Made by a program: the position numbers and the translations under genes. Below the pieces are notes generated by a model. It was not told the origin of the DNA. It made no database searches and was given only the letters and a program-made list of their open reading frames with translations. This document shows positions 19,965 to 26,759 of a stretch of DNA of 64,000 nt, piece by piece. The number at the start of each line of letters is the position of its first letter. Within the stretch, counting starts at the first letter, position 1. Origin of the DNA: Tildeniella torsiva UHER 1998/13D (lineage in GTDB: Bacteria; Cyanobacteriota; Cyanobacteriia; Phormidesmidales; Phormidesmidaceae); NCBI GenBank assembly GCA_019358835.1, contig JAHHIH010000020.1, positions 1 to 64,000 of the forward strand. The letters run 5' to 3'.

Positions 19965-20119
19965 CCAGTACCTCGAGGATGGTGTGCATCTTCTAGTTTT
20001 AGGATAAACAATTACTGAGTACTGAGCCAGCTAACTTGTTGTTGGCGGCAAGCTCTCGGTTTGGTACTTCTTATGGCAGATTAGGTGAAAATTTGGCAGC
20101 TAATACCTTTGAGGAGCAG

Positions 20120-20193
20120 CGCGGCGATCGCGCGTAGATGGGGTGAAGGAATTTGTGTGCTTAGGGTAGGTTGTTGGGTAACAAAACTATTAG
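20120..20193. repeat. Dispersed short repeat, copy B
   Basis: A block starting GCGGCGATCGCGC and running through GGGTGAAGGAATTTGTGTGC and GGTAGGTTGTTGGGTAAC to about 20193 matches copy C (20626-20699) over its whole length with few differences. It sits just downstream of the decayed toxin fragment and may mark a recombination boundary. Confidence 0.7.
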
Positions 20194-20199
20194 CTTCAA

Positions 20200-20325
20200 T
20201 TACTGGCGGCGTTTCCAGTAGCTAGGCTCACGACTGCAATGCATAACCGCCAAAATTAGAATGTAGTCTTGTTCAACCGTGTAAAGAACGCCGTAGGGAA
20301 ACTTACGTGGAACACATATCTCATG
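20200..20325 (-). pseudogene. Truncated ParE/RelE-type toxin remnant
   Basis: On the minus strand a short frame ending at 20200 reads [10 protein letters not shown], then [13 protein letters not shown], then [10 protein letters not shown], which is the C-terminal third of a ParE/RelE-fold toxin. The usual N-terminal part of about 55-60 residues is missing: the frame has no start codon and begins at the stop region of the antitoxin-like gene in a different frame. The simplest reading is deletion of the 5' part of the toxin gene, leaving an inactive stump. Confidence 0.7.
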
Positions 20326-20551
20326 GTTCAATCAGCCGTCTGACCTGCGCCAGGGCGTCTTCACCTGAAATTGGTTGCACAGAACCATCTCGGATTTCGT
20401 CTCTCCGTCGTTTGGCTTCAGTTACCCAAACGGCTTGAATAGCTGGGTCGGTGTCAAATTCTAGGCTTTCGACTAACTTATCGGCAAGCAGTGCTCTCGA
20501 TGCACTCGGCAAGGACAGTATTTCTTCAGTCAGCTGCTCAATTGACCGCAT
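20321..20551 (-). CDS. Addiction-module antitoxin component (TIGR02574-like)
   Basis: The 76-residue acidic helical protein has the pattern of small addiction-module antitoxins paired with ParE-type toxins: [24 protein letters not shown] near the N-terminus, then [15 protein letters not shown] and a C-terminal [12 protein letters not shown]. Such antitoxins bind the toxin and often repress their own promoter. Here the toxin partner downstream is a truncated remnant, so the antitoxin is orphaned or could act on related toxins elsewhere. Confidence 0.8.
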
Positions 20552-20625
20552 ACATAACCCTTCAGAGAATACTGTATTTGACTAAAATTGTAGCAAAAGG
20601 CGTAGGTGGCCGCTGGAGTCTGGGT

Positions 20626-20738
20626 GCGGCGATCGCGCATGGATGGGTGAAGGAATTTGTGCGCTTAGGGTTAGGTTGTTGGATAAGAAAACTATCAGGG
20701 GTGTTGAGTTGTGCGGACTCTTCACCCAACCTATATTA
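20626..20738. repeat. Dispersed short repeat, copy C
   Basis: Positions 20626-20699 match copy B (20120-20193). From about 20649 the element also matches copy A through ACTATCAGGG and the TTCACCCAACCT end. This copy is the most complete of the three and lies between the antitoxin gene and the caspase cluster. Confidence 0.7.
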
Positions 20739-20753
20739 GCTAATGATTAACTA

Positions 20754-21137
20754 CTAAGGCCTACGGGTAAACTTCATTGTAATCCCTCCAGTGTTACCAA
20801 GTTTACCTCCATTGCCAGCAATTCCGATTTGCCCCTCTGCATTGACCTCAACAGAAAGAGTTACTTCATCTAAATGCATTTCGCGGCTTTGCTCTGCCTG
20901 AGCAAATAAATCCCCCACGACTTGCATTAGCCCGTTCATCTGTGACTTAAGAGCCTGAGCATCCAGTGGTATACGCTCTTTTTTTAGAATACGGTTAATT
21001 CTCTCAGAGATGATGTTGGGTTGTTGATCGTATCCTCCGCCCATATCTTCGCTTGAACGCCTACCTTCAACGATAGGAAATTCAACTAGTTCTTCTTTTT
21101 CAACGAATACCCAAATTGTTAAATCTTCTAACATCAT
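20754..21137 (-). CDS. Small peptidase-associated accessory protein (Pepco/Trypco-like)
   Basis: The 127-residue protein has an N-terminal beta segment (LEDLTIWVFVEK), a linker, a helix (LDAQALKSQMNGLMQVVGDL) and a C-terminal beta hairpin rich in Gly (DEVTLSVEVNAEGQIGI then GGITMKFTR). This layout resembles small proteins found beside trypsin-like or caspase-like peptidases in predicted bacterial conflict systems (Pepco/Trypco domains). It is the third gene of an AT-rich leftward cluster, 155 bp after the orthocaspase-FGE gene. By analogy it may regulate or recruit the protease. Family assignment is by pattern only. Confidence 0.5.
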   Translation of the reverse strand: MMLEDLTIWVFVEKEELVEFPIVEGRRSSEDMGGGYDQQPNIISERINRILKKERIPLDAQALKSQMNGLMQVVGDLFAQAEQSREMHLDEVTLSVEVNAEGQIGIAGNGGKLGNTGGITMKFTRRP

Positions 21138-21292
21138 TAATTCAATCTATTCGATGGTTAAATTACGGCTTAGCAAAATACAATTTTATCTCTAATTGGC
21201 TTTCCTCTTCTCCTGATAAAAAGCTTTCAAAACACAGAAACTGCATAAACTCAAGGCAGAAAATCTTATATTTGCCCGCAAAAAACCTTGTA

Positions 21293-23164
21293 TTACAAAA
21301 CGGAAACGGCAACACGAAAGCCTAGGGCATCGTCTTGGCAATCGATGTTTGCCTGGTTACGATATGCAGAGCGACAAGCAATAGGATCACTGCTCCAAGA
21401 TCCGCCACGGGTCACGCGAGAAGAACTATCACCTCCAGTTGTCCATGCTATTCCATCCGTAGGTGCTCCATTATAGTTCTCATGCCATACATCCTGGCAC
21501 CACTCAAGAACGTTGCCATGCATATCTGATAAGCCAAACATATTAGCGTAGGTAAACTCTTGAACTACATTTGTTGATTGGCGATATTCTCCTAATGAAC
21601 CATGTCCATAGCGGTAATTACCATGATAGTTAGCTTCAGCTGTTCTAATCGTTTCTCCAAAATGAAAGGGAGTTGTTGTTGTTGCTCGACAGGCATACTC
21701 CCATTCAGATTCACTTGGCAGGCGATACTTACGTCCTGTATAGCGACTAAGGCGCTCACAAAATTCTATAGCCTCACACCAGCTTACACATTCTACAGGC
21801 CGATCTTTACCTTTGAATTTAGCAGGACTAGCTTCTAATTCTTGATTTACTTTAGGCAAAAATGATACTGCATTCCATTGAATCTGGGTGATCGGATATC
21901 GTCCTAGCCAGAAAGGCTTTATTACTACATTATGTTGGGGCTCTTCGCGATTAGTCCGACCTCGCTCACCCTGAAGCGAACCCATCATAAAAGAGCCACC
22001 CGAAATACTTACTAGCTCTAATGAAACACGGTTTCCCAAGTCTTCTACATAACAAATTACTTGAGTTTTCCAATGCTCTAATTCTTCGCCTTTGTTATTT
22101 AGTCTTACTATTTGAACCGGAAGTCTCGAACTTGAAATAGAAGTAAAAGGTGACGGATGTGGTTTTAATCCATCATCTAAATTAGTGTGCAGGGTAACTT
22201 CAGTTCTTGTTTCTAGATCACGAGGTTCTTTGGCTTCAACTTTAAAGTTTATCGATCGAGAATTTGACCAAATTCTTTTCAAGCCCTTAAAGGCGGATTG
22301 GTCAGAAGGTTGTATAGCTAGAACTCTTTTCCATAAGTCTTCAGCTTGCTCAATATTTCCCTCTAGTTCTGCATCTTTTGCATCTTCTTTAAGAGTTAAA
22401 ATATCAAGCTCCGTTGCTTGCTCAGGCAGTAAGACAAGATGTGACTTTATCCTTGGCTCAACAATAGTATAAGGTGTTTGAGAGGGTTTTCTATACTTTT
22501 GGTTTAAAGCCGGAACATTATTCAATAAATAATTATCTAATCGCTCTACTGTTGCACAATTTTTCTCTCCTTGAAGACGCAATGCAGTCAACAAAACGTA
22601 AGTAAAAGATCCTTGCCTCAGTTCTTCTATTTCGTAAGAAGATTCATTAGGGCTACATGAGAATATAGTTATGACACCTTTCGGTCGTTCTGAGCCAATT
22701 CCTAATCCGTTTCGACGGCCTTGGTCCCGACAAGCATCTATCAATAAAATTACATTGCCTGCACCACAACACCTTAACCTTTCCGTAATGTAATTAATGG
22801 ATATACTTGTTTGACCTACGTTACCTGGATCAGCATCACCAGGCATTAAATAGTCTCGCTCTTGATAACGTAAACCATGTCCCGCAAAGAAAAACCAAAA
22901 GCTATCTCCTGAAGACAAAAAGGGTTTTTCAAAACGGACTCGTAAAAATCGCATAAGATTAGTAAAACGAGGTAATGCTTCAAGATCATTACCGTAGTCT
23001 TGCTTTATGGAAAGAGCATCCTCCGCAAAGTAATATACCTTTTCAAAGTTCGCTTCCTTCAAAAAATAGTCCTGCATTAATTCTGCATCCCGCTTGGCAA
23101 AACCAAGGTCTTTCAAGTAGTTGTACTTGTTGATGCCAATGCAAATTGCAAAGTTTTTCCCCAT
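21293..23164 (-). CDS. Orthocaspase (metacaspase-like protease) fused to a formylglycine-generating-enzyme-type domain
   Basis: The 623-residue protein begins with a p20-type caspase domain (about 1-240) carrying the catalytic pair H96 (FFFAGHG) and C145 (LLIDACRD), both intact. A short TPR-like helical stretch follows (about 255-300; EGNIEQAEDLWKRVLAIQP), then a Ser-rich linker. A C-terminal FGE-sulfatase/SUMF-type domain (about 375-623) has EWEYACRA, NVLEWCQDVWH, RVTRGGSW and ALGFRVA. Cyanobacterial orthocaspases cleave after basic residues; the FGE-like module is often a sugar- or peptide-binding sensor rather than an oxidase. It sits between a coiled-coil membrane protein gene (85 bp upstream) and a small accessory gene. 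A role in regulated proteolysis, stress death or phage defence is inferred. Confidence 0.9.
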   Translation of the reverse strand: MGKNFAICIGINKYNYLKDLGFAKRDAELMQDYFLKEANFEKVYYFAEDALSIKQDYGNDLEALPRFTNLMRFLRVRFEKPFLSSGDSFWFFFAGHGLRYQERDYLMPGDADPGNVGQTSISINYITERLRCCGAGNVILLIDACRDQGRRNGLGIGSERPKGVITIFSCSPNESSYEIEELRQGSFTYVLLTALRLQGEKNCATVERLDNYLLNNVPALNQKYRKPSQTPYTIVEPRIKSHLVLLPEQATELDILTLKEDAKDAELEGNIEQAEDLWKRVLAIQPSDQSAFKGLKRIWSNSRSINFKVEAKEPRDLETRTEVTLHTNLDDGLKPHPSPFTSISSSRLPVQIVRLNNKGEELEHWKTQVICYVEDLGNRVSLELVSISGGSFMMGSLQGERGRTNREEPQHNVVIKPFWLGRYPITQIQWNAVSFLPKVNQELEASPAKFKGKDRPVECVSWCEAIEFCERLSRYTGRKYRLPSESEWEYACRATTTTPFHFGETIRTAEANYHGNYRYGHGSLGEYRQSTNVVQEFTYANMFGLSDMHGNVLEWCQDVWHENYNGAPTDGIAWTTGGDSSSRVTRGGSWSSDPIACRSAYRNQANIDCQDDALGFRVAVSVL

Positions 23165-23249
23165 CTTCTGTCAGTAATCTATTAAGTTTAATTCCGAATC
23201 TTTCTGCTGCAGAATCCTATATCTGAATTTTGAAATGCAAGCAAAATAG

Positions 23250-24977
23250 TCAAGGTAATTGTTGCGATGCCGGATTATTTCTCTGATTTCTGTTTATTTC
23301 CAAACGGTTCAACCGAGTGTCAAGCATCCAATAAAAAGCGGAAACAAAACAAAGTACTAGAGCCATTGTAAGCCACCACTCAACATCAGACTTCTTCTTG
23401 ATTTCCTCTAACTGTTGTTTTGTATCGGTAATATTTTTATCGAGTCCAGTGATGGCATCAGCAGTGGCAGTAGTTAATCTTTTATTAATCGACTTTAAGC
23501 TTTCAATCTCTCTTCTTGAATTTGCTTTAAGCTCTTCGAGTTCATCATTCAGTCTATCAATAACGTATCGGTGTTCTTCTGTGCCTTCCCTTATTGAATT
23601 TATTCTACTATCTTTATCATTAATAGCACTCCAAATATCTGCTTCGAGATCTTCAATGGCTGAAGCATGTTGAGTAATTAGGTCTTCTTTTTCACTTGTT
23701 AGTTGTATAAGTTCCGCTTTAGATCTACTTAGTAGTTTTTTGCTCTCGGCAAGCATTTTTTTGAGCTCATTAGCAAATTTGCCCTTTACTTGTTGAAGCT
23801 CTTGCCAGAAAGTATCGTGCTTTTGCCTAGTTTCAATCTCCAAATCGTCAATATTTTTGGATAGAATATCTTTCAAGTCTTTCTCGGATTTCTCAAGGGA
23901 TCTGCTTATTAAGGACGGTAACTTTTCTATTTCTAGTTCGAGTCGTGCGATACTTTCCTGAATGCCATCCAAAAGATCAATATTATACGACACGTGATTG
24001 AATCTATGATACGCATCTAAAAGTACGCTTAACTTGGTATAAGTTTCTTTTTCCACAATAATGTTTTCATTTCGAGAGCCAATATAATTTTGAACTTTTA
24101 GCTCTGCAGCCTGGATCATTTCATCCGCATTGCATCGATTCACTTGAAACTTATCAAGTTGACATTGCTCAAGATTAGGGCGTTCTCTAGTAGGCTCTAA
24201 ATCTATATTGTTTTCCATTAACTTTTGACTGTAGAACGCTCCTAACACTCTTACAACTGTTTGCTTCTCATGTTCAGATGCATCTGCAACCAAGAGTTTT
24301 TTCCTCAATTCTCTATATTCATCTATTAATCGCTCAGACACGACAACTTTCTTATTGTCAAAAGGACTGATGAATTCTGGGTTCTCCGGATTTTTTCTCC
24401 TAAAATCCGCGATCCAATTTGAAAAATCAGTAACAGTCGGTGGAATTTTTTCAATGGCAATCTTTGCCTTAAGCACCGAGAGGACATTGATTGAATCCTG
24501 TTCTAACTTTCTTTTTCGGCCTAATTCTTTGATTAAAGCTAATTCTAGCTGTGTGATAACCTCCTGTTTGGCCATCAGTTCAGCCAATTCAACACTTACT
24601 CTGACGGAATTGTTCTTCATTAATCGCACAAGAATGTCAGCTTCTTTTGCGATTGGATTGTCGTCGCCAAATTTAGCAATGCATGTTGATCCAATTCGAG
24701 CAACATTCCCATTCAAACGGTTTTTGATGTAAGTAACGTATTTAATTTCTTCACCTTCAGCTTCGCCTTGGCTACATAGACAACTTGACTTTTGCTCTAT
24801 ATCTGCGCTAGTGAAAAACCATTGCTTAGAGATGTTTTGAAGATCCTCTTCAACGACATCCTTTAGATCGAGATCTGTTTCGGAGTGCTGAACAAGCCTG
24901 CAAACCAGTAATTCAAACTTTTCGCGTCGATTCTCACGTCTATACAAACCTTGCAGATCATTAATAAGTTTGCTCAT
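23250..24977 (-). CDS. Coiled-coil membrane protein with N-terminal Cys motif, partner of the orthocaspase
   Basis: The 575-residue protein is not recognised as a named family. Residues about 50-105 hold a Cys/aromatic motif (SSCLCSQG, then IKYVTYIKNRLNGNVARIGSTCIAKFGD), which recalls a small zinc-binding-like module (CxC...VGSxC). The middle is helical. Residues about 325-535 form a long, strongly charged coiled coil, and one transmembrane helix (WWLTMALVLCFVSAFYWML) lies about 25 residues before the C-terminus. The bulk is therefore cytosolic and tethered at its C-terminal end. As the first gene of the leftward cluster with the orthocaspase, it may act as a sensor, scaffold or protease substrate. 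Base composition is clearly more AT-rich than the flanking genes, suggesting transfer. Confidence 0.65.
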   Translation of the reverse strand: MSKLINDLQGLYRRENRREKFELLVCRLVQHSETDLDLKDVVEEDLQNISKQWFFTSADIEQKSSCLCSQGEAEGEEIKYVTYIKNRLNGNVARIGSTCIAKFGDDNPIAKEADILVRLMKNNSVRVSVELAELMAKQEVITQLELALIKELGRKRKLEQDSINVLSVLKAKIAIEKIPPTVTDFSNWIADFRRKNPENPEFISPFDNKKVVVSERLIDEYRELRKKLLVADASEHEKQTVVRVLGAFYSQKLMENNIDLEPTRERPNLEQCQLDKFQVNRCNADEMIQAAELKVQNYIGSRNENIIVEKETYTKLSVLLDAYHRFNHVSYNIDLLDGIQESIARLELEIEKLPSLISRSLEKSEKDLKDILSKNIDDLEIETRQKHDTFWQELQQVKGKFANELKKMLAESKKLLSRSKAELIQLTSEKEDLITQHASAIEDLEADIWSAINDKDSRINSIREGTEEHRYVIDRLNDELEELKANSRREIESLKSINKRLTTATADAITGLDKNITDTKQQLEEIKKKSDVEWWLTMALVLCFVSAFYWMLDTRLNRLEINRNQRNNPASQQLP

Positions 24978-25230
24978 AATAATTAGCTACCTAGTATAAA
25001 TGCTCGTTTCTTTAAATGTTTTGATGCCAATGATACTATTTGGGATTATCTCAGTTCTCTTCCAATTAATACATTAGAGACTGAAAAGTTATTTAATTCA
25101 CTAAAAGTAATTGTTTTGGCTTGACTTTACTACTACGGTTGACGGGAAGCGATCGCACCATTATCCTCTTACATTAAGCCGTTCAGCCAGAGCGGTGACC
25201 ACCCAGAACTCGAAAATCTTAGCGCTGCCG

Positions 25231-25390
25231 GTCGGTGCCGTTAACACCGACAGACAGCTAACCCCGCAAATCTTGCACGCAGATTGCGAGGCTAGGCTCA
25301 TCGTACCCTAGCCCCCTCAGTTTGCACTTCAGCTGCGGGTGGCTAGGGTTTTCGCGTTCTGTTTCTTTCCATCCACAAAGGAAACAGAAC
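25231..25390 (+). promoter_or_regulatory. Structured leader upstream of the 93-residue protein
   Basis: Four hairpins are visible in a row: GTCGGTG 25231-25237 with CACCGAC 25245-25251; an imperfect stem at about 25265-25289; CCCTAGCC 25306-25313 with GGCTAGGG 25341-25348; and GTTCTGTTTC 25356-25365 with GAAACAGAAC 25381-25390. The last stem ends 2 nt before the ATG at 25393 and takes in part of the AAAGGA ribosome-binding site. It looks like a cis-acting RNA controlling translation. No known riboswitch class is recognised. Confidence 0.5.
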
Positions 25391-25392
25391 CC

Positions 25393-25674
25393 ATGTTTGA
25401 ATATCTCGAACCCGATGCCAGCGGCGCATCTAACCTGCCGCCGTCTTCACGCAGCACCCCCCAAATTCGTCCAGAGCGGGTGCGTCACATGCTCTACGGC
25501 AGCCTCGCAGGCATAGACCGCACCATCAAAATCCTCCACGCCCTCGGCTACACCGACCCCAACGACTGGAGCGACCCCATCCCCGTGCCGCCCACCAGCG
25601 ACACCATCGGCGCAACCTCCCCAACAGGCACCATCTGGATGGCGATCGCCACCAAAACCGTGCTGATTGAGTAG
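25393..25674 (+). CDS. Short cyanobacterial protein of unknown function
   Basis: The 93-residue protein has a Pro/Ser-rich start (MFEYLEPDASGASNLPP), a central basic helical part (RPERVRHMLYGSLAGIDRTIKILHALGY) and a Pro-rich stretch before a short C-terminal segment (TIWMAIATKTVLIE). The organisation recalls a family of small multicopy cyanobacterial proteins with an LxGSxxxIxxTIxxLHxLGY core, known to me only as hypotheticals. The ATG at 25393 has an AAAGGA Shine-Dalgarno and follows a chain of hairpins. No catalytic motif or membrane helix is seen. Confidence 0.65.
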   Translation: MFEYLEPDASGASNLPPSSRSTPQIRPERVRHMLYGSLAGIDRTIKILHALGYTDPNDWSDPIPVPPTSDTIGATSPTGTIWMAIATKTVLIE

Positions 25675-25796
25675 CGCACCCCGCCAGCCTCCGATGGCAT
25701 AAACCCTTGCCATTGGAGGCTGCGATCGCCAACACCAAACCCCCTACCCCCGCAACTTGGCCTGCTGAGCAGCCCGTTTAACAAATTAAGACCGCC

Positions 25797-26006
25797 GTAA
25801 AGCAAACTGGCACAGCTGCATAGCTTGCAGAGGCCGGTGTATAGCGAAGTGGCACAGCTGTTTAGCTTACAGAGGCCGATGTAAAGCAAAGTGGCACAGC
25901 TGTTTAGCGTATTGAGGTCGCTGTAAAGTGAAGTGGCACAGCTGTTTAATATATTGATGCCGCTGTAAAGCGAAGTGGCACAGCCGTGCAATACGTTCAA
26001 AGAGCA
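25797..26006. repeat. Five tandem 42-bp repeats
   Basis: Five contiguous 42-bp units start at 25797, 25839, 25881, 25923 and 25965. The best-conserved core is GTGGCACAGCTGTTTAG; the 3' part of each unit drifts. Because 42 is divisible by three, both a minus-strand frame (14-residue repeat containing NSCATSLY) and another frame (QLCHFAL) stay open across all copies. There are no unique spacers, so this is not a CRISPR array. The region 25675-26072 otherwise holds no recognised gene. Confidence 0.9.
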
Positions 26007-26072
26007 AATTGCCGATTGCACGCCGCAGCATCTTAAATTGAATGCCTGCATCGGCCCATCGAGCTTGCCAAA

Positions 26073-26627
26073 ATGCCCGCACCCACCGAACTCTGGATTG
26101 ACACCCTACCCTCTGCGATCGGCGACATTTTGCTAGTCTCCGACGGTGCATCGCTCTGCGCCCTCGACTTTGCCGACTATAAACCTCGCCTGCTGACCCT
26201 GCTCCACAAGCGGTTCGCAGCAGTCACCCTCACTCCCTGCACCAACCCCCAGGGCTTTAGCGATCGCCTCGACGCCTACCTAGCTGGCGACCTGCACAGT
26301 TTCGACCCCGTGCCCGTCAACCCAGGGGGCACCGCCTTTCAGCAGCAGGTGTGGCTAGCACTGCGCCAAATCCCCGCTGGCACAGTGGCCACCTACGGCG
26401 AACTAGCGGCGAAACTTGGCAAACCCACAGCCTACCGAGCCGTGGGCATGGCCAACTCGCTCAACCCTGTGGCGATCGCCCTGCCCTGCCACCGCGTCGT
26501 TGGCGCCAACGGCCAGCTCACCGGCTACGCAGGCGGCCTAGAGCGCAAACAATGGCTGCTGCACCACGAAGGCGTCGATTTGGCCAACCGAGACTCGATT
26601 CAGCAAGAATTGTCGCTGGGGCTTTAG
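26073..26627 (+). CDS. ogt: Methylated-DNA-protein-cysteine methyltransferase
   Basis: The 184-residue protein is an O6-alkylguanine-DNA alkyltransferase, which removes alkyl groups from O6-guanine by irreversible transfer to its own cysteine. The acceptor is C139 in the invariant PCHRV motif. The DNA-binding winged helix includes AYRAVGMANSLNPVAIALPCH, with the Arg finger R122, and the upstream TAFQQQVWLALRQIPAGTVATYGELA is canonical. The N-terminal part is shortened relative to Ada. It starts 67 bp after the tandem repeat and is followed by a palindromic repeat copy. Confidence 0.95.
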   Translation: MPAPTELWIDTLPSAIGDILLVSDGASLCALDFADYKPRLLTLLHKRFAAVTLTPCTNPQGFSDRLDAYLAGDLHSFDPVPVNPGGTAFQQQVWLALRQIPAGTVATYGELAAKLGKPTAYRAVGMANSLNPVAIALPCHRVVGANGQLTGYAGGLERKQWLLHHEGVDLANRDSIQQELSLGL

Positions 26628-26660
26628 CGATCGCGTAGGTTCAGTAGATCGCAAAATCCT

Positions 26661-26759
26661 AGCCCTCTCCCCCACCCCCTCTCCCAGGCAGGAGAGGGGA
26701 GCCGGAAAACCTTTCAAAGTCCCTCTCCCAGCTTGGGAGAGGGATTTAGGGAGAGGGCT
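26661..26759. repeat. Dispersed CCCTCTCCC/GGGAGAGGG palindromic repeat, copy 2
   Basis: Two tandem hairpins with CCCTCTCCC-type arms, the shared AGCCGGAAAACC spacer and TTTCAAAGTCCCTCTCCC match the copy at 6281-6373 closely. It occupies most of the gap between ogt and the following hydrolase gene. Confidence 0.88.

Follow-up and report, generated by a model that had tools for sequence, protein, structure and literature searches.

The locus considered here raises the question of whether three adjacent AT-rich genes of the cyanobacterium Tildeniella torsiva UHER 1998/13D form a single conflict or cell-death system, as an initial annotation proposed, or whether only some of them belong together. 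The genes lie within the window, by which we mean the whole stretch of 64,000 nucleotides that was analysed (positions 1 to 64,000 of contig JAHHIH010000020.1; the source assembly, GCA_019358835.1, comprises 5.84 Mb in 48 contigs). All three are transcribed from the minus strand in the order CC575 (23250–24977; 575 aa), caspase-FGE (21293–23164; 623 aa) and Pepco (20754–21137; 127 aa), with gaps of 85 and 155 bp and no overlap. Their GC contents are 0.373, 0.405 and 0.427, whereas the remainder of the window stands at 0.575, and the first description of them as co-directional, closely spaced and AT-rich (GC 37–43% in surroundings of 57%) holds. The caspase gene ranks first among 63 Pepco-linked caspases in its GC difference from the flanks, the flank being the rest of the window in this case and about 3 kb on each side for the other 62. 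Promoter-like and terminator-like matches in the region 20300–25500 show no excess over shuffled sequences (10 against 11.4, and 2 against 4.1, respectively), and no tRNA genes were found in the 64-kb window.

The 623-aa protein is a fusion of a p20 caspase domain (PF00656; Peptidase_C14, 6.5e-15, 55.9 bits against a Pfam cut-off of 21.4) and an FGE/C-type-lectin-like domain (PF03781; FGE-sulfatase in Pfam, 9.1e-50). Its H96 and C145 align with the dyad residues of its relatives, which bears out the intact His/Cys dyad and the orthocaspase-FGE fusion originally read from the letters. The 127-aa protein, at first recognized only as small and peptidase-associated, is a Pepco protein (PF24393; Pfam, 1.7e-27, 96.6 bits against a cut-off of 27), a small partner of caspase-type peptidases. 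It is the single Pepco match in its own genome, where the caspase-FGE gene is one of five Peptidase_C14 matches. Pepco is present in 46 of 386 genomes of the phylum and 29 of 63 of the family, with the genome under study counted in both, and a search for viral relatives of Pepco and of the caspase gave one weak locus each. A single-sequence fold of Pepco has a pLDDT of 59.7 and carries no weight here.

Pepco and caspase genes are found together repeatedly. The comparison comprises 93 Pepco ORFs at 93 loci, all but L168 contributing and L161 supplying two, and a caspase ORF lies within 600 bp on the same strand of 63 of them, the window included. It is 3' of Pepco in 60 (median gap 4 bp) and 5' of it in just three, the window, L142 and L157, so that the gene order in the window is the reverse of the common Pepco-then-caspase order; in L069 the caspase-FGE ORF is in pieces, with the FGE piece 5' of Pepco. 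Neither a caspase nor an FGE ORF is located within 600 bp of 29 of the 93 Pepco ORFs; among these, L140 and L151 have a caspase-FGE gene farther away on the same strand, L152 has one on the other strand, and in L090, L099, L145 and L151 the Pepco ORF is near the downstream limit of the stretch or contig. One ORF in L161 (2817–3335) fuses the beginning of a caspase domain with the final part of a Pepco domain, and is probably a deletion remnant.

The domains joined to the caspase vary. Peptidase_C14 is present in all 57 caspase partners that were scanned (the 63 less the window and five ORFs shorter than 350 aa), accompanied by FGE in 35, GUN4 in 14, iHD-CE in four, HD-CE in four and wHTH-HSP90 in three; HD-CE/HSP90 systems are reportedly the subject of an earlier paper. 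When the 63 partners are aligned, the dyad is conserved in every one that has the column (His in 61 of 61, Cys in 58 of 58, window included). Caspase and Pepco are a recurrent, dyad-conserved pair, and the pair in the window belongs to a known kind, the Pepco-caspase in its FGE-fused form. The caspase also matches the PADLOC candidate-defence 'caspase' model (6.2e-12). A literature search, with coverage mostly outside subscription journals, found no relevant publication on Pepco with a caspase or peptidase, and the accessible portions of the literature on DGRs, caspases and cyanobacteria, similarly covered, contain no description found of a Pepco-caspase locus.

The third gene has a different distribution. 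CC575 is an orphan composed of an N-terminal Cys module (cysteines C66, C68 and C99), a helical middle, long predicted helices (residues 333–463 and 467–567) and a single hydrophobic stretch near the C terminus (534–552, mean hydropathy 1.77), and has no Pfam match above cut-off. Its AlphaFold model (29 rows, pLDDT 71.8) consists of a strand, the CxC, a hairpin and a short helix with C99, and then long helices to the C terminus; in the model the Cys module looks treble-clef-like, and a Foldseek search of the PDB gave no match at E <= 0.001. A relation to Zorya ZorA was considered and rejected: the similarity is weak (2.5e-05) and confined to residues 341–514 with no N-terminal match, the NCBIfam ZorA models score 12 bits against cut-offs of 190 and 250, and the likeness is to the long helices only, with the MotA/ExbB-type part not matched and the sole predicted membrane segment of CC575 near its C terminus.

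No full-length relative of CC575 was found in 385 other cyanobacterial genomes (up to three candidates scored per genome), in 62 other genomes of the family, 25 of them of the genus (up to 21 candidates scored per genome), in the plasmids or phages searched, or in genome and viral contigs searched with short exact peptide patterns, which detect close relatives only. A partial match within the family, in G399, covers residues 13–182. Conserved co-occurrence of all three genes, which the initial annotation had named as a check, is not supported. The N-terminal part of CC575 belongs instead to a protein family whose members are mostly stand-alone and about 157 aa long. A profile of the module made from four sequences, none of them from the window, placed CC575 at 4.1e-9 among 590 ORFs; with a wider profile the value was 2.8e-6, and W53, C66, C68, I84, N86, G96, C99 and F103 are invariant in both alignments. 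The relatives of the module (L178–L234) comprise 45 genome loci and 12 viral loci, 28 of these 57 being covered by the wider alignment, and no Pfam or NCBIfam match is common to any two of the seven members examined.

None of the 66 loci examined for the Cys module has a caspase, FGE or Pepco match; these include two likely duplicates (L102/L174 and L175/L219), and the module profile matched ORFs in 64. The supposed tie of the coiled-coil gene to a protease accordingly fails for the module, though the fused form is seen only here. Among 90 of the 176 neighbouring proteins listed (the immediate neighbours on each side at the 45 genome loci only), the raw counts are nine for Peptidase_M78 with PADLOC CapP, four for AriA and three for GajA, with methylases and helicases among the others. 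Because stand-alone copies adjoin CapP-like, GajA-like, methylase and helicase genes, the Cys module appears to have an independent life. Together with the missing full-length relatives, this favors an alternative to which we give nearly an even chance, namely that only caspase-FGE and Pepco form a system, and that CC575, an unrelated member of the mobile gene pool, has come to rest next to them; its shared strand, the 85-bp gap, the similarly low GC content and its position in one block that has shared boundaries and holds only these genes argue the other way.

The block lies between two repeats. A multicopy element, R1 (25133–25410, plus strand), has its 5' end at the upper boundary of the AT-rich DNA, and a dispersed repeat, R2 (20603–20744, unstranded; repeat families D2–D4), is located just past the 3' end of Pepco; the approximately 4.4 kb between them is AT-rich and contains just the three genes. 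The junction with the neighbouring genes is common to two of eight sister stretches, G415 and G420, which share with the window the hydrolase gene beside the site (protein identities of 90% and 81%), and homology to both stops exactly at 25133, the end of R1. Beyond this point G415 (L293:5284–7600) codes for an AAA ATPase and a DUF4435 protein that match AriA (7.3e-28) and AriB (3.1e-12), a PARIS-like pair, and G420 (L298:1800–5756) codes for a Roc-TIR protein and a WD40 protein. In G427 a similar stretch of about 107 bp, located 6 kb from ogt and of uncertain orthology, precedes the gene for a DUF262 protein (5e-8 to 7p9k).

R2 is on the far side of the cargo and in the same orientation in the window, G415 and G420. 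It has further copies in the window and in G415 and was found at only one of 20 other R1 loci, and is therefore not a general end marker; it was also considered as an attC site and set aside, since its core-like motifs, judged by eye, are in the wrong order. Because the boundaries of a block with these three genes and no others recur in sister genomes, the three may have been inserted together, and by sequence comparison they fill one apparently exchangeable AT-rich block. Outside the block is a toxin-antitoxin remnant (20200–20551, minus strand), in which an antitoxin gene (20321–20551; PF09720, 1.1e-16) and a short ParE-like ORF (20200–20331; ParE_toxin, 0.0087, which is below its cut-off and spans profile positions 63–88 of 89 only) sit between diverged direct repeats at 20121–20193 and 20626–20698.

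R1 is about 210–280 bp long and is followed by a small ORF (MFEYLEP...). Full-length copies are present in 21 of 26 genomes of the genus, with matches reaching 12 per genome, the most that were scored, and short weak matches occur in five other genomes of the family that belong to other genera (L322–L326). In an alignment of copies from 25 of 30 loci, these five weak matches being left out, conservation begins sharply at the equivalent of 25133. The median GC content is 0.41 in the 5' kilobase as against 0.58 in the 3' kilobase, and is lower on the 5' side in 24 of 24 usable copies, some of the 5' flanks being short and that of L320, which starts inside the element, having no meaningful value. 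Twenty further R1 stretches (11 from the same genome and nine from G415, with one copy also among the 25, L327 being L342) follow the same pattern: the nearest 500 bp on the 5' side is GC-poorer than the 3' kilobase in all 20, and, as read by eye, the nearest 5' ORF of at least 80 aa points away from R1 in 17, two of the exceptions being integrase-like. R1 copies are recorded in L301–L321 and L327–L350.

The R1 consensus folds at -79.7 kcal/mol, compared with -25.2 +/- 4.0 for 50 column shuffles, with 25 of 1742 pair cells broken and double changes in only three of 70 pairs; the element is predicted to be highly structured, with thin covariation support. Rfam gave no match in the region 20000–26700 up to E 0.5. 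IntI-like ORFs are present at five of the 58 R1 loci searched, including a 70-codon fragment in the same genome. Judged by eye, the genes carried at other R1 sites mostly lack an evident link to defence, and none of the remaining R1 loci under study gave a caspase, FGE, Pepco or Cys-module match. In the window, a 42-bp unit occurs five times in tandem (25776–25985) between the small ORF that follows R1 and the ogt gene.

CC575 is, on this evidence, an unproven third component that is found only in this genome, and the part given to it rests on position and composition; most likely it would either place the module at the membrane or be a substrate. A more inclusive proposal takes all three genes as one complete system: the tail-anchored Cys-module protein would tether to the membrane a caspase that senses through its FGE domain and is controlled by Pepco, and the whole would travel as exchangeable cargo beside R1. 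R1 itself would be a structured multicopy element, so far undescribed and linked to integron integrases, that gathers AT-rich genes, including defence systems, at many places in the genus. We regard this proposal as unlikely in its full form.

The FGE domain of the caspase bears on what the pair may do. The active-site cysteines of the formylglycine-generating enzyme, which we take to be Cys336 and Cys341 of human SUMF1, correspond in the window protein to a Ser at the first position and a Cys at the second; the displayed FGE entries, presumably mutant forms, also have Ser at the first, and loss of formylglycine-generating activity is only suggested by these residues. Among PDB entries the FGE part comes closest to PvdO and to a Treponema denticola variable protein, the latter described as a DGR target in the accessible text of PMC7159879.

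A relative of the pair is linked to a DGR. In L084 (6004–10106) the genes are ordered Pepco, caspase-FGE, Avd, RT and TR, and 14 of the 15 VR/TR mismatches are at template A; an adenine bias like that of L084 is also seen in 13 more VR/TR pairs, taken from the family's DGR loci, which were picked from a longer candidate list. Avd, RT and TR are also beside Pepco at the contig end in L149, an Avd piece is kept near Pepco in L142 (bAvd, 5.9e-12) and L069, and pieces of both Avd and RT in L147. RT-like matches were recorded in L043, L062 and L063.

By comparison with these relatives, the counterpart of the variable region in the window is the C-terminal stretch of caspase-FGE at 21311–21430 (minus strand). 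No DGR template repeat was found in the same genome, in which the C-terminal 271 bases have as their best match elsewhere a 68-bp stretch at 78%, and none of its 48 contigs has a match at 1e-20 to the L149 RT. Mismatches between the window and the relatives' TRs are spread over all bases and are not A-specific. The possibility of a DGR variable protein in the window was dropped on these grounds; past diversification of this copy is unsupported because the mismatches are not concentrated at template A, and the sensor is taken to be fixed because no DGR parts were found in its own genome.

Cyanobacterial DGR variable proteins with orthocaspase N termini have already been reported (PMC7517822), and share with the protein described here an orthocaspase-like N terminus and a C-terminal CLec-type domain. 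L084 resembles such a locus with Pepco in front, whereas the window differs in that RT and template were not found; Pepco is unmentioned in the accessible text of that paper. Combinations of FGS and caspase have likewise been predicted to be conflict systems (PMC7159879, PMC8195603, available portions), among which the EACC1/EACC2-caspase systems are similar in having a small constant component beside a caspase with varied domains, with FGS proposed as an invader sensor. Here the small component is Pepco instead, and the window caspase scores 44.1 bits against the cut-off of 140 for the EACC1-associated caspase model NF047832.

Since sister genomes have antiviral-type genes at the same spot, the module is probably an immune or cell-death one. 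The conflict or cell-death reading of the initial annotation survives to this extent, and draws on the recurrent dyad-conserved pair, the PADLOC match, the predicted FGS/caspase conflict modules and the defence-type genes at the site in two sisters; its extension to a conserved three-gene system does not. Weighing against the conflict reading are the 29 of 93 Pepco ORFs that are without a nearby caspase, the reversed gene order of the window, the mostly non-defence look of the cargo at other R1 sites, and the restriction of alternative cargo at the orthologous site to only two sisters.

Alternatively, the caspase could be a non-immune protease that carries a lectin-like domain and serves housekeeping or regulation, in stress response or differentiation. 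A broader set of functions, including homeostasis and differentiation, is attributed to orthocaspases (PMC7517822, available text), and GUN4, which occurs in the 14 partners noted above, is a tetrapyrrole-binding domain (PMC7159879, available text). The patchy distribution of Pepco, the AT-rich block, the DGR linkage in a relative and the defence-type genes at the site in two sisters make such a role doubtful.

Toxin-antitoxin-type genes are near Pepco at several loci picked by eye, with HigB/HTH in L152, ParE/PF09720 on the opposite strand in L147, and UPF0175/DUF3368 in L141, the last of which we assume to be of toxin-antitoxin type. The caspase module might act through the toxin-antitoxin pair just 3' of Pepco, following the precedent of MaOC1, an orthocaspase reported to cleave the antitoxin in a toxin-antitoxin pair flanked by direct repeats (PMC7935541, available text). 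Such a mechanism is quite improbable given that the window toxin ORF is truncated, the toxin-antitoxin genes are outside the block, and their types vary among the relatives, themselves chosen by eye. The likeness to MaOC1 is of an orthocaspase with a ParE/ParD-like pair located 3' between direct repeats; in the window Pepco is in between and the repeats are diverged, and the words FGE and Pepco do not appear in the MaOC1 paper.

We therefore favor, on balance, a lectin-sensing Pepco-orthocaspase conflict module that is carried as cargo with CC575 alongside. The core would be a Pepco-orthocaspase module of two proteins with a role in immunity or cell death, in which the FGE/C-type-lectin-like domain on the caspase would sense a ligand, probably an invader molecule, and Pepco would bind the protease and either hold it inactive or assemble it. 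Upon sensing, the His96/Cys145 protease would cleave cellular proteins, presumably after basic residues by analogy with orthocaspases, and this cleavage would halt growth. The sensing domain is DGR-diversified in L084, with DGR parts kept by other relatives, and would be fixed in the window, where CC575, with its Cys module, coiled coil and predicted tail anchor, shares the AT-rich block with the pair at a site of varying defence-type genes. What is new here is the Cys-module orphan that accompanies the pair, the inverted gene order in a locus where no DGR was found, and the site of exchange.

This case joins lectin-sensor orthocaspases, DGR diversification in a relative, and a site of differing defence-type modules. 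The Cys-module family is without a Pfam or NCBIfam model, and some of its members are near known defence genes. The R1 and R2 boundaries make the question of which genes form one unit a testable one, and the R1 sites provide a list of candidate cargo genes.
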